Virus record (IMG/VR): IMGVR_UViG_3300009537_000149 | Coordinates: 1-26,161 of that record | Source: a virus | Strand: one strand, 5' to 3' | Length of the DNA: 26,161 bases | In this document: piece by piece, positions 1,175-15,460 of the stretch | How positions within the stretch are numbered: the stretch's first letter is position 1 | How the letters are laid out: every line of letters starts with the position of its first letter | Program-made: the position numbers and the translations under genes | Notes under the pieces: generated by a model | Databases searched by the model: none | The model's input: only the letters and a program-made list of their open reading frames with translations | What the model was told of the DNA's origin: nothing

Positions 1175-1804
1175 ATGGAACCGGTACGGAATGAATTCTT
1201 GTGGACAGAAGTTTGGCGACCCCATCGCCTTGATGATTGCATCCTCCCCGCCGAGCAACAGACTATGTTTAAGGAGTTTGTTGCTCAGGGTGAGATACCC
1301 AATATGCTTCTTGCGGGTACATCAGGTGTAGGGAAGACTACGGTTGCTAGGGCTCTATGTGAGGAGCTTGGTTGTGATTATATGGTTATCAACGGGTCTG
1401 AGGAGAGTGGTATTGATGTTCTTAGAACCAAGATTAAGAACTTTGCCTCAACCGTTTCGTTTAGTGGTAAGACAAAGGTTGTTATTCTCGACGAGGCAGA
1501 TTATTTGAACTGTTTCGCGGGTAATCAAAAAATCCGAATTTGGGATGAAGCATCAAATTCAATTAAACTAGAGTCGATATTGGATTTGGTTGGAAAAGAA
1601 GTACAAGTATTGAGTTATAACTTTGCTACGAAATGTATTGAGATTGTCCATGCTTTTATTCCAGAAAGCAAGTCAAATGAAGAAGTATTTGAGGTTACGT
1701 TTGAGGATGGGACGATAATGTACTGCACTAAAGACCATCCGTTTTTTGACTGCGATGGCAAAGAAAACAAAATTTCAGATGGGGAATTATTCGCAGCAGT
1801 CTAA
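1175..1804 (+). CDS. 44: Clamp-loader ATPase (gp44-like), N-terminal half fused to an N-intein
   Basis: 209 residues. Residues 1-112 are the N-extein: an AAA+ clamp-loader ATPase with Walker A GTSGVGKT (48-55) and Walker B VVILDEAD (102-109). At Cys113 (nucleotide 1511), just after DEADYLN, the sequence changes to an N-intein of 97 residues beginning CFAGNQKIRIW. This has a block-B-like CTKDHPFF (Thr-x-x-His) and ends in ELFAAV at TAA 1802-1804. The remainder of gp44 is in the gene at 2273-2992, so function should require trans-splicing. The joined exteins give 112+202 = 314 residues, against 319 in T4 gp44. No good Shine-Dalgarno precedes the ATG at 1175; translation may be coupled to gene 45. 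Confidence 0.92.
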   Translation: MEPVRNEFLWTEVWRPHRLDDCILPAEQQTMFKEFVAQGEIPNMLLAGTSGVGKTTVARALCEELGCDYMVINGSEESGIDVLRTKIKNFASTVSFSGKTKVVILDEADYLNCFAGNQKIRIWDEASNSIKLESILDLVGKEVQVLSYNFATKCIEIVHAFIPESKSNEEVFEVTFEDGTIMYCTKDHPFFDCDGKENKISDGELFAAV

Positions 1805-2383
1805 ATCTTCCAGTGTATAAATGTATTGGCGTGGCTTCAACAGCATTTAATTTTGTGTGAGAAAATTCCGAAACCGCCATATCCAAAGAATAGACGGCGC
1901 GAGGCAAGAACCCCAAGATTTCAGCATCGAAGACCGGCACAATGTGGTATACCTCTGTTGATGGAGATGAGATGAGAGTGTTTCGTGACCATAAAGATGT
2001 ACCGATTGGGTGGGTGCGGGGCATGAGAAATGCAATAAAAATCGAAAAGAATCGAATGGCGGCAACGGGTCGCCGTCATACTCAACGGGCAAAGGATAAA
2101 CTAAGTGAAAATGCAAAACGAAAAATGTACTACACATCACCAGATGGCTTAATTGTGCGAGCATTTTACTCGGTAGATACTGTGCCGAACGGGTGGGTGA
2201 AGGGTAATAAAAGTATATCCCGAAATAAAAAGATCGGTGAAGCTGTTCATACACGACGGAAAGGAGAAAGTTATGAAAAAAATAGTGTCGATTAAGTCGA
2301 TGGGTACACAACCAGTATTTGATGTAGTAACAGGATCATCAAATGAAAATTTTATCCTGGAAAATGGCGTCGTCGCACACAAT
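1511..2383 (+). mobile_element. Split-intein cassette interrupting gene 44
   Basis: The N-intein (1511-1801, 97 aa) starts with Cys, has the Thr-x-x-His of block B, and ends at a stop codon. The C-intein (2273-2383, 37 aa) has block F (PVFDVVTGSSNENFILENG) and block G VVAHN, with Cys as the first C-extein residue. All residues expected for splicing are present. The total of 134 aa is normal for a mini-intein, and the 97/37 division is where described naturally split phage inteins (gp41, NrdJ types) usually break. Between the halves are 468 bases with stops in all forward frames, carrying an endonuclease-like remnant. The insertion site is the Walker B box of an AAA+ ATPase. Confidence 0.85.
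1942..2295 (+). pseudogene. Homing-endonuclease remnant with repeated DNA-binding modules, between the gp44 halves
   Basis: A frame of 117 residues carries two copies of a module, roughly M-[WY]-Y-T-S-x-D-G-x(3)-R-x-F-x(3)-D-x-V-P-x-G-W-V-x-G, at residues 1-28 (MWYTSVDGDEMRVF...GWVRG) and about 66-93 (MYYTSPDGLIVRAF...GWVKG). They are joined by basic helices typical of nuclease-associated modules in phage GIY-YIG and HNH endonucleases. No catalytic motif is present. Upstream in the same frame, module-like residues (GKNPKISASKTGT) continue before the ATG, but TGA at 1858 and TAG at 1891 interrupt the frame, and no ribosome binding site precedes 1942. This suggests a decayed nuclease gene. Its end overlaps the start of the gp44 C half (2273). 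A small functional DNA-binding protein is the alternative. Confidence 0.55.
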
Positions 2384-2992
2384 TGTAGCTCAACTCAACC
2401 TGCCTTGCGTGGGTTTATGGAGGAGTTCAGCTCCAACTGTAGGTTCATCTTTACCTGTAATTACAAGAATCGTATCATCCCACCTCTGCATTCTCGGACG
2501 ACGATTATTGAATTCAAGCTGGCCAAGGATGACCGTCCTAAGATGGCCGCTCGGTTTATGGGTCGAATTAAGGAGATCCTCAACCACGAAAATGTTGAGT
2601 TTGACGAGGCCGTAATTGCTCAACTTCTGATAAAGCACTTCCCAGACTATCGCAGGATCCTGAACGAGCTACAGCGATATTCGGCCGCCGGACGGATAGA
2701 TTCTGGGATTCTGGTCAATATGGCCGATGTTAACATCACAAATCTGCTGGAAGCTCTCAGGGAGAAGGATTTCAAGAAAATGCGTACCTGGGTGGTCAAT
2801 AATATGGATAGTGACCCCCAAACCATCTTTAGAACGCTCTACGACAAGCTCTCCGAGTCCGTAGTCGAAGTCCCTCAATTGATACTACTATTGGCCGACT
2901 ATCAGTACAAACAGGCGTTTGTAGCGGATTCTGAGTTGAATATGGTCGCCTGTTTGACGGAAATCATGGCTTCTTGCTCGATTAAGAAGTAA
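2273..2992 (+). CDS. 44: Clamp-loader ATPase (gp44-like), C-terminal half preceded by a C-intein
   Basis: 239 residues from ATG 2273, chosen because AAGGAG (2261-2266) lies 6 bases upstream; an in-frame ATG at 2237 lacks this. Residues 1-37 are a C-intein ending VVAHN. Residue 38 is Cys, the +1 extein residue, and begins the remainder of gp44: CSSTQPALRGFMEEFSSNC matches T4 gp44 ESQRHLRSFMEAYSSNC. It then continues through sensor-1 (FIFTCNYKNRI) and an SRT in place of the usual clamp-loader SRC (LHSRTTII), then the collar region. It is in the same reading frame as the N half but separated from it by stops. The stop is one base before the gene 62 ATG. Confidence 0.92.
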   Translation: MKKIVSIKSMGTQPVFDVVTGSSNENFILENGVVAHNCSSTQPALRGFMEEFSSNCRFIFTCNYKNRIIPPLHSRTTIIEFKLAKDDRPKMAARFMGRIKEILNHENVEFDEAVIAQLLIKHFPDYRRILNELQRYSAAGRIDSGILVNMADVNITNLLEALREKDFKKMRTWVVNNMDSDPQTIFRTLYDKLSESVVEVPQLILLLADYQYKQAFVADSELNMVACLTEIMASCSIKK

Positions 2993-8469: not shown

Positions 8470-8791
8470 AGAATTATTCTCAGTTCAGCCAATGGAAAAC
8501 TCTCCTGAAGGTTCACAGGACCACGAAATCTTAATTGAGGACGGCGAGTTCACAGGTGTGCGATTTAACTTTGGTGCAATTGAATTTGCAGGTGAAGATG
8601 GTGACGGTAATGGGACGATTCGCTTCAACTATGACATTCACAGCGACCCTGTTCCTGATGATGCTAAGGAGCGGTTCGAATCTGTAATTGGTGAAATTCT
8701 TCACACTATCATCCTCGAAATGGTTTCGAGGGAAGACGCGCCCGCAGAGTCCACAGAAGAGGTTAACGAGGAAGTTTCGGTAACTGAATGA
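8462..8791 (+). CDS. Acidic hypothetical protein between uvsX and the helicase gene
   Basis: 109 residues from ATG 8462, chosen because GAGGAG (8449-8454) lies 7 bases upstream; the frame is open further upstream, but only as an antiphase reading of uvsX. It overlaps uvsX by 8 bases and the helicase start by 4 (ATGA), so all three are translationally coupled. The protein is strongly acidic, with a beta-rich middle (EFTGVRFNFGAIEFAG...GTIRFNYDI), a helix (ERFESVIGEILHTIILEMV) and an acidic tail. T4 has gene 40 at this position with similar length, but gp40 is a membrane-associated head-assembly factor and no sequence similarity is apparent. Function unknown. Confidence 0.75.
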   Translation: MSKELFSVQPMENSPEGSQDHEILIEDGEFTGVRFNFGAIEFAGEDGDGNGTIRFNYDIHSDPVPDDAKERFESVIGEILHTIILEMVSREDAPAESTEEVNEEVSVTE

Positions 8792-9426
8792 AACTTGATT
8801 TGATGATTCTCTCTACCCTCATTAATGATGAGGAATATTTCAGGAAGGTCATTCCTTTTCTGAACGAGGAGTATTTTACGGATGGAAAGGAACGACGAAT
8901 TTTCTCGGCCATAAAAACTTTTGCCGACAAATACAATTCACCTCCTACTATAGAGGCATTGGGGGTAGAGATTCAATCTGCGCGTGATTTGAATGATAGT
9001 GAATATGCTGGTGTTGTTTCTATTCTAGAGGAGATTGGTGTTCCTCCCGATACCAATATGCAGTGGTTGTTAGACAACACCGAAAAGTTCTGTAAGGACA
9101 AGGCCGTATATAATGCAATTGTGAAGTCCATCCAGATTATAGATGGTAAGGACAAGGAGCATTCGCAGGAGGGCATTCCTGATATTCTTCAAAAGGCTCT
9201 TTCGGTTTGTTTTGACACTAATGTTGGTCACGATTATTTTCAGGATTCTGAGTCTCGGTTTGACTTTTATCATCGTAGGGAAAACAAGATCCCCTTTGAC
9301 TTGGAAATGTTCAACAAGATTACCAAGGGAGGGATTCCCAACAAGACGCTTAATATCTGTCTGGCGGGATGTGTCCATCCAGAAACAAAGGTTTTAATTA
9401 GATTTCGGAAACGTAGCTCCAGTTAG
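8788..9426 (+). CDS. 41: Replicative helicase (gp41-like), N-terminal half with a very short N-intein
   Basis: 212 residues. Residues 1-194 are the N-terminal domain and linker of a DnaB-type hexameric helicase (MILSTLINDEEYFRKVIPFL...IPFDLEMFNKITKGGIPNKTLNICLAG), ending inside the P-loop. Cys195 (nucleotide 9370) starts a segment CVHPETKVLIRFRKRSSS that reads as the first strand of an intein and stops at TAG 9424-9426. The rest of the intein and helicase is at 10281-11456. Joined exteins would be 194+267 = 461 residues, against 475 in T4 gp41. The last 29 bases overlap the 3' end of the opposite-strand HNH gene. The start is fixed by the ATGA overlap with the preceding gene. Confidence 0.92.
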   Translation: MKLDLMILSTLINDEEYFRKVIPFLNEEYFTDGKERRIFSAIKTFADKYNSPPTIEALGVEIQSARDLNDSEYAGVVSILEEIGVPPDTNMQWLLDNTEKFCKDKAVYNAIVKSIQIIDGKDKEHSQEGIPDILQKALSVCFDTNVGHDYFQDSESRFDFYHRRENKIPFDLEMFNKITKGGIPNKTLNICLAGCVHPETKVLIRFRKRSSS

Positions 9427-10204
9427 GTTTCTTTTTGGATTTGCACCAATTTATAATGGTTGCTGATGATACTGAATAATGTTTTGATGCCAACAGCAAT
9501 GAGTCAAAAATAATAACAGAATCCGTTACTTTTTTTCTAAGAGGAGATGGGCCACCAGTTGTTCTATTTTTCCATGGGTTGTGCGGGGAACCAAAAATAT
9601 ATCCTTGATCCAAATGTGCTTGAAAATCTTTTGGTGCAACCCGAATGAATTTATTTTGTCCTGGGATGTACATTCCTTTTTTGCCGATATGTGCTTTGGC
9701 TCCCATCGACGAACGTTTTTTTCTACCTTCGGGGGAATTCCAGAACTTGAAATGCGGATTTGTTTTATGACTTTTTGTCCCTCCCATCGAAGCTCGTTCT
9801 TTTCTGCCTTCTGGTGTAGACCAGTAATAAAAAGTTTTTTTTGATTTAGATTTTTTTTGAGACTCAAGGCCAGATTTTTTCCAAATTGCTTTTTGTTCTT
9901 TAGATGCTTTGTGAAATCCTATGTTGTTTTCAGCACACCATTTTCCTGTTATGCGGCGCTGTTCAGATGTTAGCTTTACGCCTAGCATATGCATAGCTCT
10001 TAAATCATTTGGGTTCCGATTTATTTTCCATAACAAAAAATGTGCTAACGTATGTTCTCTGGGAGTCAAAAATGATAAATTGGACCGTTCATCTGAACCA
10101 CCGCAATGCTTTGGTATGATGTGATGTTTGTGGATACCACTATTATTATAATTCTCTTTTCTAGACTCGCATAAGTTTTGGTATATAGACTTGTAAAATG
10201 ACAT
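9398..10204 (-). CDS. HNH homing endonuclease, antisense between the two helicase halves
   Basis: 268 residues. An HNH nuclease fold is visible at residues 27-55: HHIIPKHCGGSDERSNLSFL then TPREHTLAH (paired His, Asn42, His51/His55). Downstream are tandem basic modules: YYWSTPEGRKERASMGG and KFWNSPEGRKKRSSMGA, then MYIPGQNKFIRV...GYIFGSP, the same module type as in the gp44 remnant. The C-terminus is helix-turn-helix-like (LLASKHYSVSSATIINWCK). It probably cuts intein-free gene 41 and so spreads the cassette (inference). It is intact, on the strand opposite to all other genes, and its 3' end overlaps the N-helicase ORF by 29 bases. No Shine-Dalgarno is seen; a minus-strand late box lies about 50 bases upstream. 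Confidence 0.88.
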   Translation of the reverse strand: MSFYKSIYQNLCESRKENYNNSGIHKHHIIPKHCGGSDERSNLSFLTPREHTLAHFLLWKINRNPNDLRAMHMLGVKLTSEQRRITGKWCAENNIGFHKASKEQKAIWKKSGLESQKKSKSKKTFYYWSTPEGRKERASMGGTKSHKTNPHFKFWNSPEGRKKRSSMGAKAHIGKKGMYIPGQNKFIRVAPKDFQAHLDQGYIFGSPHNPWKNRTTGGPSPLRKKVTDSVIIFDSLLLASKHYSVSSATIINWCKSKKKPNWSYVSEI

Positions 10205-10219
10205 AAGATGCGTTATATT
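10191..10219 (+). promoter_or_regulatory. Possible early promoter for the helicase C-terminal half
   Basis: TTGTAA (10191-10196), 17 bases, TATATT (10214-10219). The -10 context GTTATATTTA equals that of the gene 45 promoter; the -35 matches TTGACA at 4 of 6. It overlaps the 5' end of the minus-strand HNH gene and would start transcription about 55 bases before ATG 10281, supplying the C half without reading through the antisense gene. Confidence 0.5.
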
Positions 10220-10257
10220 TAAGTGTTAGACAATGTTCCCTGTACCGGCTATATCAA

Positions 10258-10265
10258 TATTTATA
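10258..10265 (-). promoter_or_regulatory. Minus-strand late promoter for the HNH gene
   Basis: The plus strand reads TATTTATA, so the minus strand carries an exact TATAAATA late box. A transcript would start near 10252 and reach the HNH ATG (10204) after about 48 bases. Late timing is also known for T4 intron-encoded endonucleases. Confidence 0.5.
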
Positions 10266-10280
10266 CAAATGGAGTTTTCT

Positions 10281-11456
10281 ATGTATGCTTGGGAAACAAA
10301 AGAAATAGAAATTGGTCAAATTTCAACGCTCTTAGATGACTACGAAATACAAGTAGATTCACCTGATGGGTTTGTGGAAGTTACAACTTTTGTTGATAAG
10401 GGAGTGTGGGACGAATATATTTTATCAACTGAAGATGGAAAACGTGTTCGGTGCAATGAAAATCATTTGTTTGAAACTACAACTGGTTGGGAGTATGCTA
10501 AAAATCTCGTCGGCGCTTCTTTTAAAGTATTAACTAAAACTGGAGAATCTTCGGGGACTATTGTGCGGTCTGGGTTAAAAATACCAATTGTGGATATAAG
10601 AGTAGACCACCCCAATCATAGATATTACACGAATGAGGTTAGTTCTCATAATACAGGTGTTGGAAAATCTCTGTTTATGTGTCACTTTGCCGCATCCTCT
10701 TTGAGCCTGGGAAAGAATGTATTATATATCACACTGGAAATGGCAGAGGAGAGAATTGCCGAGAGAATTGATGCGAACCTGATGAATGTTTCTATGGAAG
10801 ATTTGCACGATATTCCCAAGGCTATGTTTAGTTCTAGGATTGAGAAAATCCGAAACAAGACAGAAGGCAGATTGATAGTCAAGGAGTATCCTACGGCTAG
10901 CGCACACGCTGGTCATTTTAGAGCGTTGCTCAACGAGCTTCAGCTTAAACAGGAATTTTCCCCGGATATCATCTTTATTGATTACTTGAATATCTGTGCC
11001 AGTTCTAGGTTCAAGCTGTCCAATCAGGTGAATAGCTATACTTACATTAAGAGCATTGCCGAAGAATTGCGCGGTTTGGCGGTTGAGTTTGATGTCCCAA
11101 TTTTCAGTGCAACGCAGACGACTAGAAGCGGATTTGCTAACTCGGACGTAGAATTGACTGATACATCAGAATCGTTCGGTCTCCCAGCAACAGCAGACTT
11201 CCTGTTCGCCCTGATTTCCACAGAAGATTTGGAAAAGTTAGGACAGATACTTGTCAAACAGCTTAAAAATCGTTATAATGATATATCATTGCATAAGCGA
11301 TTTGTTGTTGGAGTTGACCGCCCCAAAATGAGGCTCTATGATTTGGATCCAAATTCTCAGCGGAATCTTCTTCAGGATGATTCACCTGTGGCTGCACCTG
11401 CTGTAATATCATCAAAACGGTTCACCCGGGATTTCTCCAACATCAAATTGGACTAA
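10281..11456 (+). CDS. 41: Replicative helicase (gp41-like), C-terminal half preceded by a long C-intein fragment
   Basis: 391 residues from ATG 10281, chosen because GGAG (10271-10274) is 6 bases upstream; in-frame ATGs at 10233 and 10269 lack a ribosome binding site. Residues 1-124 are the intein C fragment, ending SSHN. From Thr125 the helicase resumes inside Walker A (TGVGKSLFMCHFA), followed by Walker B (IIFIDYLNI), ATQTTRSGF, FGLPATADFLFAL and a C-terminal tail. The TRSGF/ANSD point, where the published gp41-1 split intein sits in other phages, is uninterrupted. The C extein is 267 residues. The 5'-to-3' replicative helicase works with the gp61 primase; activity should require ligation to the 8788-9426 product. 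Confidence 0.92.
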   Translation: MYAWETKEIEIGQISTLLDDYEIQVDSPDGFVEVTTFVDKGVWDEYILSTEDGKRVRCNENHLFETTTGWEYAKNLVGASFKVLTKTGESSGTIVRSGLKIPIVDIRVDHPNHRYYTNEVSSHNTGVGKSLFMCHFAASSLSLGKNVLYITLEMAEERIAERIDANLMNVSMEDLHDIPKAMFSSRIEKIRNKTEGRLIVKEYPTASAHAGHFRALLNELQLKQEFSPDIIFIDYLNICASSRFKLSNQVNSYTYIKSIAEELRGLAVEFDVPIFSATQTTRSGFANSDVELTDTSESFGLPATADFLFALISTEDLEKLGQILVKQLKNRYNDISLHKRFVVGVDRPKMRLYDLDPNSQRNLLQDDSPVAAPAVISSKRFTRDFSNIKLD

Positions 11457-11493
11457 ATGCTAAATACTTTGGGGACAACCGAGGACGCTCCGA

Positions 11494-12186
11494 ATGTACC
11501 AGGCTCAAAGAATACATCGAAGAATGGAGAATTTCGAGGAATTTCAAACCCTCCCGGGGCGAGAAATAACCCATCGTCATCTCAGAAAGATTCTTAACCG
11601 ATTTTTGAAACCATTTGGGGCTAGGGCGGTTATTGAGCGCGACAAGACGTTGACGGGGAAGCCGAGGAGTTATCTTGAGGTGTCTGGTTATTTTCTTCCT
11701 GGAAAACGGTCAACGTCTGTGACTGTGACATTTCATATGCCAGCCAAAACGAAGAATGTTGTGTTTAGTGTTGGAGAAACCAATCGGTTTCTGTTCTTTT
11801 TGTCACAGGTTTTACAACACGAATTAATCCATAAAAATCAATGGGAACAATCCAATAAGGGCGGGGAGATTCGGACGGTTAAAGTCAACCATTCTGCCAG
11901 ACTGTCTAGAAAGAGAGTTGCTTCTATCGCCTATATGTCGGACATCGAAGAAGTTGAATCCTACGCGCACGACATAGTAATGGAGATTATGTATCATTAT
12001 CCGAAAGAAAATCCATATGATGTTATAAAGACCATAGATAAGCGCAGGTGTCTTTATAGCTATTCACTGTTCAAGCGGGCTTTCAAAGGAACCGACTGGA
12101 CAACTCTTAAGAAAATCCTGCTGAGAAAGATATATCGCTGGGTCCCCTATACTGAGATTCCTAAGAAGGTGTCTGTAAGTTGTTGA
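11494..12186 (+). CDS. Putative zinc metalloprotein with an HExxH motif
   Basis: 230 residues. QHELIHKNQ (HExxH at about residues 109-113) is preceded by a helix-like FLFFLSQVL and followed by SDIEEVESYAHDIVMEI, whose Glu residues could supply the third zinc ligand, as in gluzincin-like peptidases. Many T4-like phages of aquatic bacteria have a protein of this kind. Substrate and role are unknown; a phage-encoded protease acting on host or virion proteins is one possibility. The ATG at 11494 has GAGGA 8 bases upstream; Met11 (11524) is an alternative start. A weak late-like GCTAAATA (11459-11466) precedes it. No signal peptide. The C-terminus is basic. Confidence 0.6.
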   Translation: MYQAQRIHRRMENFEEFQTLPGREITHRHLRKILNRFLKPFGARAVIERDKTLTGKPRSYLEVSGYFLPGKRSTSVTVTFHMPAKTKNVVFSVGETNRFLFFLSQVLQHELIHKNQWEQSNKGGEIRTVKVNHSARLSRKRVASIAYMSDIEEVESYAHDIVMEIMYHYPKENPYDVIKTIDKRRCLYSYSLFKRAFKGTDWTTLKKILLRKIYRWVPYTEIPKKVSVSC

Positions 12187-13639: not shown

Positions 13640-15460
13640 ATGACTACTAATATTCAGAATAAGCACCTAGAACACTTAGAGGACCGATTATTAGACACCG
13701 GCACCGTTGGTGCTGAGGAGTCTATTGCCTTTCTAGAATCGGTTCACGAAATGCTCAAAGGGTCTGCGTCTGCTCCAGTCAATATAACTACAAAGTTTGA
13801 CGGTGCACCATCTTTCGTTGCCGGAATGGACCCAGAGAGAAACCGTTTCTTTGTGGCAACCAAGCACGGTGCATTTGCTAAAGATATGCAATTGTGTTTT
13901 GGTGAGACAGATTGTGAAATTGTGTATGCGGGGAAGGGAACACTCGTAGATACAATGAAATTACTTTGGAGAGAACTGTCTCCTTTAGGTATTACGGGTG
14001 TGATGCAGGGTGATGTTATGTTCACACCGACTATTAAAAAAAATCAGACTATTGATGGAAAGGACTATATAACCTTCAAGCCCAACACAATTGTCTATGC
14101 CATACCTGTAGACGACCCTTTGGCAGAGAAGATTGGTCCTGCAAAGTTGGGAGTAGTTTTTCACACCAAATATACTGGAAGCGGTGCCGTCAATCAAATG
14201 TCCGCATCCTTCAATGTTGATGTCAGTAATATAAAATCCTCAAAAACCGTTTGGGTTGAGGATGCTAGATATAAAGATTTGACAGGTAATGTCACGCTGA
14301 CATCGCAGGAAAGTGCAACTATAACTAGAAAACTGACCAGTGCTAAGTCCTCAGTTACTAGATTGAGTAGTTTTATTGAAGGCATATCTAAAGAAAAGAA
14401 AGCTCTTAGTTTGGGGGTGTTGTTCAAGAGATTTGTTAATAAGTTAATTCGCGAAAATGCATTGTCTAAAAATGACATCAATATGAAGTTCCTTCCATAT
14501 GTCATAGACCAGATTGATGCGAAGGCTTCGACAGTTTCTACGATAGCCGCAAAGACCCGTTATGAGGATATGAAGAAAGAGGTGACGGAATATTTACGAA
14601 CTCACAACACCGAACTGATGGCCCTTGTTTCTCTTTATGACGACCTGATAGATATTAAGAATTTGTTTGTTTCAAAGTTGGAGAGGGGGTCCTTGTTGAC
14701 TCTTTTTGTCGAGACTGAGGCAGGATTCCAGGTCACTGGTCCTGAAGGATTCGTTGCTATTGACAGGGCTTCTGGTAACGTGGTTAAGTTGGTCAACCGA
14801 TTGGAGTTCTCCCGACTCAACTTTAATTCGGTCAAGGACTGGAAGAAACCTGTTGAAGCCGTCGACAACACACGACCTCAAGTGTCTAAGACAATGGTTA
14901 TGACCTTTGGACGCTTTAATCCACCCACTTCTGGTCACGAACGGGTGATTAAGTTCGTCAAATCTACGGCGGATTCAAACAGAGCAGACCACGCCATCGT
15001 TATAAGTCACACACAGGATGCTAAATCTAATCCTTTGGAGGTCGGAGAGAAGCTGGCCTTTATGAAGCAAATGTTCCCTAATATAAATATAATTGCGAGT
15101 AGTCCGCTCATACCGACATTTTTCAAGTTCTTTACTAAGTTTTATGAAGAAGGATATACTGATATTATAATGGTCGTTGGGTCAGACCGAGCGGATTCAT
15201 TTAGACGAATGATAGCTGGGGTACGGGAAAAGGAGTCGTTACAGGGTGAGAGAACGCTTCTTTCTATAACGGTTCTTTCTGCAGGTGAGAGAGATCCAGA
15301 TGCTGAAGGTGTTACTGGTATATCAGGAACCAAGATGCGTGAATTTGCTAAGAAAAATGACTTTATTTCATTTCGTGCGGGGCTCCCAGATTCAACACCG
15401 AAAGAAGTGGGAAAGGAATTGTTTGTAGCACTCAAACGCAGGCTTAACATAAGGAAATGA
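13640..15460 (+). CDS. Two-domain nucleotidyltransferase: ligase-like KxDG domain plus HxGH-type cytidylyltransferase/NMNAT-like domain
   Basis: 606 residues. The N-terminal part (about 45-180) carries TKFDGAPSFVAG (Lys52, motif I KxDG of covalent nucleotidyltransferases), VATKHGAF, GVMQGDVMFTP and ITFKPNTIVY, the order expected of motifs I to V in RNA/DNA ligases. The C-terminal part (about 418-600) has TFGRFNPPTSGH (422-433; GRFxPxxxGH, the HxGH nucleotide-binding signature), MVVGSDRADSF and GISGTKMR (560-567, the ISxTxxR motif) of adenylyl/cytidylyltransferases such as NMNAT. A helical linker lies between. The natural substrate is unknown; NAD or RNA-end metabolism is plausible. Homologues of the whole protein exist in T4-like aquatic phages, to my recollection without a known role. 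The ribosome binding site is weak (TAGAG). Confidence 0.7.
   Translation: MTTNIQNKHLEHLEDRLLDTGTVGAEESIAFLESVHEMLKGSASAPVNITTKFDGAPSFVAGMDPERNRFFVATKHGAFAKDMQLCFGETDCEIVYAGKGTLVDTMKLLWRELSPLGITGVMQGDVMFTPTIKKNQTIDGKDYITFKPNTIVYAIPVDDPLAEKIGPAKLGVVFHTKYTGSGAVNQMSASFNVDVSNIKSSKTVWVEDARYKDLTGNVTLTSQESATITRKLTSAKSSVTRLSSFIEGISKEKKALSLGVLFKRFVNKLIRENALSKNDINMKFLPYVIDQIDAKASTVSTIAAKTRYEDMKKEVTEYLRTHNTELMALVSLYDDLIDIKNLFVSKLERGSLLTLFVETEAGFQVTGPEGFVAIDRASGNVVKLVNRLEFSRLNFNSVKDWKKPVEAVDNTRPQVSKTMVMTFGRFNPPTSGHERVIKFVKSTADSNRADHAIVISHTQDAKSNPLEVGEKLAFMKQMFPNINIIASSPLIPTFFKFFTKFYEEGYTDIIMVVGSDRADSFRRMIAGVREKESLQGERTLLSITVLSAGERDPDAEGVTGISGTKMREFAKKNDFISFRAGLPDSTPKEVGKELFVALKRRLNIRK

Follow-up and report, generated by a model that had tools for sequence, protein, structure and literature searches.

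Results

The broken gp41 gene

The window analysed here is a whole IMG/VR record of 26,161 bases (IMGVR_UViG_3300009537_000149), a fragment of a T4-like phage in which genes for the clamp, clamp loader, DNA polymerase, UvsX, the helicase gp41, primase, thymidylate synthase and ribonucleotide reductase are recognisable. Its gp41 gene is broken inside the Walker A loop (LAG/Cys1 ... SSHN/TGVGKS) by the N- and C-terminal pieces of an intein (IntN and IntC), and a gene for an HNH endonuclease lies between them on the opposite strand (Table 1). The N half is an open reading frame (ORF) of 212 amino acids (8788-9426) that consists of 194 residues of gp41 and 18 of the intein. The frame of the C half is open from 10233, and the ATG at 10281, which follows a GGAG, is its likely start; its intein part ends in HPNHRYYTNEVSSHN, after which TGVGKS resumes the helicase. 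Along the phrog_19 profile (DnaB-like helicase), the match of the C-extein begins where that of the N-extein ends, and the joined helicase would have 194+267 = 461 residues. The HNH and IntN ORFs overlap tail to tail by 29 nt, an overlap that is usual across the family described below.

The initial annotation, made from this sequence alone, had described an N half that stops 18 codons after Cys1, a C half that opens with 124 intein residues ending in SSHN and resumes at TGVGKS, and a predicted product of 461 residues; the ORFs, their translations and the extein lengths agree with it on each count. It had also placed an intact HNH gene in the gap. The gene is indeed intact, 268 residues long and on the minus strand, but it does not lie wholly in the gap, given its overlap with the IntN ORF. 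The order of N half, minus-strand HNH and IntC recurs in dozens of independent IMG/VR contigs, and the best 80 relatives of the HNH protein in the viral collection all (80/80) lie antisense within a gp41 fracture; the fracture is therefore neither chance nor an assembly error, the latter being a possibility that the initial annotation had raised.

Table 1. Features of the fractured gp41 locus, in window coordinates.
Feature	Position	Strand	Description and evidence
gp41 N-extein (DnaB-like replicative helicase)	8788..9369	+	194 aa, end ..NICLAG; phrog_19 4.1e-46, profile positions 162-361; Pfam DnaB N-terminal domain
IntN	9370..9426	+	18 codons (CVHPETKVLIRFRKRSSS) and stop codon; aligns with start of contiguous relative L007 (CVHPDTKVKIRFRKR..)
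HNH homing-endonuclease gene	9398..10204	-	268 aa; phrog_655 1.4e-23
Copy of empty gp41 insertion site in HNH leader, proposed operator	10239..10252	-	ATAGCCGGTACAGG; codons x-A-G/T-G; 9/9 non-wobble positions
T4-type late promoter of HNH gene	10258..10265	-	TATAAATA motif match
Shine-Dalgarno GGAG for gp41 C half	10271..10274	+	sequence; inferred
IntC	10281..10652	+	124 aa; block-B-like CNENH, block F, terminal SSHN; alignments and VidaL 6vgv profile match
gp41 C-extein	10653..11456	+	267 aa and stop codon; start TGVGKS (remaining Walker A); phrog_19 2e-76, profile positions 362-598

An intein split at the S1 position

Because Pfam gave no match for the intein pieces, identification of the intein rests on PDB profiles, fold and relatives. 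The initial annotation had proposed a profile search of the 124-residue piece against inteins. Such a profile, built from IntC and its relatives, matched VidaL (PDB 6vgv; E 4.5e-16), followed by gp41-1 (8e-8) and other mini-inteins. An AlphaFold model of L007, a relative in which the intein is contiguous, forms a HINT domain with a predicted local distance difference test (pLDDT) score of 96.7; its best PDB match is again VidaL, with a template modelling (TM) score of 0.89, and other inteins come next. The split position falls in the loop between strands 7-13 and 20-25 of this model, i.e. at the S1 position, as expected from the earlier suggestion that the split lies after the first intein strand. 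The 18-residue IntN accordingly ends after the first long strand, as in VidaL.

The residues of a class 1 intein are all present (Cys1, block B His, penultimate His, terminal Asn and Thr at +1), and N59, H62 (block B), H123 (penultimate) and N124 (terminal) are invariant in alignments A1 and A3. The arrangement is also that of a fractured gene: a conserved enzyme gene is broken by intein halves, the exteins are intact, and a free-standing endonuclease gene lies between them. Among the matches listed, no cultured-phage record carries a gp41 intein at this site; those matches are to inteins of UvsX and TerL, with 30-35% identity.

Contiguous, split and nuclease-free forms at one site

Relatives were gathered by scans of viral contigs, and removal of near-duplicates left 54 distinct loci. 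All checked relatives sit at the same Walker A site of gp41. The intein is contiguous in 12 of the 54, split with a minus-strand HNH in 32 and split without an intact nuclease in seven. The remaining three are split around other nucleases: a plus-strand HNH (L091), a plus-strand GIY-YIG/NUMOD3 gene (L124) and a plus-strand ORF that is HNH-like by eye and has no Pfam match (L086). Every split relative examined keeps an intact IntN that is closely followed by a stop. The gaps of L001, L150, L155, L158 and L161 hold a further plus-strand gene of unknown function beside the HNH, showing that the fracture gap admits genes of other kinds as well.

The contiguous state must have changed at least five times on well-supported branches of the intein tree, and nine times on the best tree. 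Some split and contiguous forms are close in sequence: IntC DNA of split L130 is 96% identical to that of contiguous L134, and split L086 matches contiguous L096 with 88% identity on either side of a clean junction. A natural deletion series of the HNH (L114, L107, L099 and L100; gaps of 752, 435, 217 and 82 nt) leaves the IntN stop and the IntC start unchanged, which shows that the split persists without the nuclease. At the junction of the contiguous L092 stands an in-frame TATTTATATAAAAATATG that is similar to the promoter and the start of IntC in L084, its split sister; this junction looks like a fusion scar, a resemblance that is suggestive only (p about 0.01; 20/2000 shuffles). Judged from these sequences, the intein has apparently split, lost its endonuclease and re-fused within the family.

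A site-dedicated HNH gene and a mobile cassette

The HNH core (H27/H28..N42..H51) is invariant in alignment A2. The match to Pfam HNH (0.0017) is below the gathering cut-off; that to phrog_655 is given in Table 1. With all of the best 80 relatives at one site, the data support an HNH that is dedicated to this position in gp41 and travels with the intein, and that presumably cleaves the intein-less gp41 allele.

In close pairs, the ratio of nonsynonymous to synonymous divergence (dN/dS) is 0.05-0.18 for IntC and 0.08-0.27 for HNH, indicating purifying selection on both. Several pairs show IntC and HNH dS of 0.04-0.41 against extein dS of 1-2: in L143/L144 the values for IntC and HNH are 0.19 and 0.19, compared with exteins at 2.2 and saturated, and in L137/L150 they are 0.04 and 0.25, compared with 2.0 and 1.3. 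IntC of L107 and L114 is 99% identical, and their exteins are 52-85% identical. Other pairs (L115/L143) show no such difference between cassette and exteins. By this measure the intein and HNH are far younger than the flanking exteins in these pairs, as horizontal homing of the cassette predicts.

The HNH leader

The T4-type late promoter motif TATAAATA precedes 53 of 61 distinct HNH genes on the HNH strand, where about 2 are expected; it is absent from the three loci with other nucleases (L086, L091 and L124). Just downstream of it, in the window and in about half of the family, lies a copy of the presumed target, NTNGCNGGNACNGG, which, wobble positions aside, equals the gp41 coding sequence LAG/TG that spans the point of intein insertion. 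Among 54 leaders that were chosen by their HNH gene and not by leader sequence, 28 match at least 8 of the 9 non-wobble positions on the HNH-sense strand, compared with 0.135 in dinucleotide shuffles and one on the other strand. The window leader matches 9/9 (p = 1e-4), a value to be read with the knowledge that the codon-aware pattern was picked after the resemblance had been noticed, so that the family count is the stronger evidence. Whole-site identity between a leader and its own gp41 site is not significant per locus and becomes so only in the codon-aware comparison. A scan of all viral contigs by pattern only (promoter plus motif) returned 55 stretches, and 52 of these lie inside a gp41 fracture, in the interval from HNH to IntC; the matches in L379 and L418 have no gp41 or HNH nearby, and that in L379 lies within unrelated coding sequence.

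The simplest reading of the target copy, by analogy with I-TevI, is an autorepression operator at which the HNH would recognise the sequence of the empty gp41 site. The copy could instead have been left over from an earlier insertion into an empty site and have come along when the HNH gene changed places. A functionless remnant should drift evenly, whereas the non-wobble positions are nearly invariant across diverged leaders and only the wobble positions vary. We regard a remnant as possible but rather doubtful. In the window, the leader is untranslated in the LAG/TG frame, where a stop follows.

The half of the HNH leaders that lack the target copy carry a hairpin that starts 3-5 nt after TATAAATA and is followed by CUCUA; it is absent from the window. 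When 20 distinct sequences are aligned, changes on both sides are seen in 9 of the 10 pairs and 99% of cells pair, with the six outer pairs, but not the inner four, partly selected for exact pairing. The DNA pattern of promoter plus hairpin occurs in at least 120 stretches of viral contigs (e.g. L239:2445-2487, L125:2300-2342 on the minus strand, and L172:3462-3504). The ORFs behind it are mostly homing endonucleases of unrelated types (GIY-YIG and HNH), with phrog_314 in 39 of 64 and phrog_655 in 21 of 64. The hairpin leader gave no match in Rfam, and this hairpin at the start of a late transcript is possibly an undescribed leader RNA element.

Other fractured genes and features

The clamp loader gene gp44 of the window is also fractured (1175-2992, plus strand), by a canonical split intein. 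Its halves match phrog_168 at positions 5-121 (1175-1804) and 115-312 (2237-2992); the N half ends DEADYLN/CFAGNQKI..TKDHPFF.. before its stop, the C half reads ..VVAHN/CSSTQ, and its IntC part has a weak match to DnaE inteins (8.7e-4). Two repeats resembling nuclease DNA-binding repeats are encoded in a plus-strand ORF (1942-2295) that occupies the gap. Elsewhere in the window, a 606-residue protein (13640-15460, plus strand) joins DUF6267 (1-399) to a cytidylyltransferase-like domain.

A fractured UvsX gene is present in the cultured Pseudomonas phage vB_PaeM_PA5oct (L162; NC_071039.1:133972-139340). It comprises an 81-residue N half ending CLPETAKVKIRLSKKQS, a 477-residue ORF annotated as hypothetical and a C half that opens with a VidaL-like IntC; according to the record, the UvsX product was observed by electrospray ionisation tandem mass spectrometry (ESI-MS/MS). 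In two further UvsX loci with a VidaL-like intein, L168 and L169, a second intein is apparent by eye downstream (..KISGG/CLTAGHKVWMADG.. and ..KISGG/CLVAGTNVTMADG.., respectively).

Discussion

We consider it highly probable that the split intein in the fractured gp41 gene is functional and splices in trans, and that the antisense gene within it encodes a homing endonuclease dedicated to this site and expressed late. The plus-strand message would be translated into two gp41 polypeptides, and the 18-residue IntN, the first HINT strand, would dock on the 124-residue IntC. The pair would then trans-splice through Cys1, Asn and Thr+1 and rebuild the Walker A loop (LAG-TGVGKS) of a 461-residue helicase. 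The HNH gene would be transcribed the opposite way from its own late promoter, and its product would cut the intein-less Walker A site of gp41 in a co-infecting phage, whereupon the whole IntN-HNH-IntC cassette would be copied in. The target copy in the leader would serve as an autorepression operator, as described for I-TevI.

Several points weigh against this reading. The late promoter is known as a motif match only, and the operator is not universal, since half of the family has the hairpin leader in place of the target copy. For the window IntC alone, AlphaFold gives only a moderate model (pLDDT 77; 9 alignment rows), as may be expected of a fragment that lacks its first strand and is modelled from so few rows, and the window has TNEVSSHN at a position where most relatives have TNG or TDG. 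Trans-splicing, cleavage and autorepression are all inferred, and the low dS of the cassette shows that it is mobile but not that the HNH drives it.

The last point leaves room for an HNH that is a passenger, or that targets another site, with the cassette spreading by ordinary phage recombination even though intein and HNH travel together. Split forms without HNH exist, intein copies with and without it are nearly identical, and cleavage by the HNH is a presumed activity. A passenger would not be expected to have its best 80 relatives all in the gp41 fracture and a target copy in its leader, and the low divergence is confined to intein and HNH and does not extend to the exteins; we think this explanation unlikely. 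Two-chain products are known from a phage gene split by an HNH gene, T4 39/60 with mobA (PMC3014915), and the gp41 halves might similarly act as separate subunits without splicing, as T4 gp39/gp60 do. The break, however, lies inside the Walker A loop with intein sequence on both ends, and contiguous relatives keep a complete intein at the site, which makes such subunits quite improbable. The stop 18 codons into the intein could also mean that the HNH insertion killed the intein and that gp41 is a pseudogene here. This we find scarcely credible, for the same split occurs in dozens of independent loci, dN/dS is far below 1 on exteins, IntC and HNH, and only the first strand is detached, at the position of the natural VidaL split (PMC13014065). 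Removal of the gap as an RNA intron or by translational bypassing has a negligible chance, as Rfam gave no match at 8700-11500 even at E up to 1, nor any intron or known RNA in eight loci, and what lies in the gap is coding sequence of IntN and IntC, complete with a stop and a start of its own.

The trans-splicing interpretation agrees with the initial annotation, which had proposed a short-N split intein with a reverse-oriented mobile nuclease gene and had suggested a new member of the short-N, fractured-gene class. The HINT fold nearest VidaL, the conserved class 1 residues, the contiguous inteins at the same site and the dedicated, co-travelling HNH uphold the first proposal. Membership in the class is upheld too, with a host gene and a nuclease that differ from those of the VidaL loci found, and within a large family that could not be seen from the one sequence.

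In the literature consulted, the natural S1-position split inteins named are VidaL (16 residues) and PolB16 OarG (15 residues) (PMC13014065). VidaL (PDB 6vgv/6vgw) resembles the gp41 intein in its S1 split, an IntN of 16-18 residues, its fold and profile, its Walker A insertion in a phage replication/recombination ATPase, and a nuclease gene between the halves. The VidaL loci that we found (L164-L169) are in UvsX, unlike the gp41 locus, and about 30% identical, the same host gene not being required of the class; their gap holds a plus-strand nuclease that is Vsr-like by eye, whereas the gp41 locus has an antisense HNH. Dassa et al. reportedly described in 2009 phage replication genes broken by split inteins with a free-standing endonuclease between the halves, mostly with canonical splits and Vsr-like nucleases. 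Compared with those genes, the gp41 locus is split at S1, has a dedicated HNH in antisense orientation, and shows the intein both whole and split at a single site.

The inteins gp41-1 and gp41-8 are likewise split inteins of phage gp41 helicase, and occupy another insertion site in that gene. They are canonically split, with IntN of 88-94 and IntC of 37-50 residues (PMC11766414); an IntN of the gp41-1 type (about 88-94 residues) is not found here, where the split is 18/124. The PolB16 OarG intein (PDB 8cpn) shares a natural S1-type split with a 15-residue IntN (PMC10189870), but has Ser1/Ser+1, lies in PolB, has an IntC of 168 residues and resembles the gp41 intein only distantly in fold (TM 0.5-0.6). 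I-TevI represses its own expression by binding, at its late promoter, an operator that resembles its homing site (PMC2988022); the HNH leader similarly combines a late promoter with a homing-site copy. I-TevI is, however, a GIY-YIG enzyme of a group I intron, encoded sense to the host gene, in contrast to the antisense HNH in an intein described here. New relative to the known class are the host site, the nuclease and its orientation, the control region, and the coexisting split and contiguous states.

We see even chances that these states belong to a reversible homing cycle. In such a cycle an invading endonuclease would break the contiguous intein at the S1 loop, time and again, and would afterwards be lost by deletion, whereupon the two intein halves would re-fuse; the driver would be the antisense HNH, dedicated to this site and regulated by its own product through the target copy. 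The leader target copy predicts the recognition sequence of the HNH. The family is also a source of dozens of naturally occurring IntN peptides, about 14-20 residues long, together with their cognate IntC; these are useful for protein labelling, as the literature consulted names no natural S1 splits other than VidaL and PolB16 (PMC13014065). How split inteins originate becomes testable, since at a single site the intein occurs whole, newly split, split without a nuclease and apparently re-fused, in some cases with nearly identical sequences (L130/L134 and L114/L107/L099/L100).
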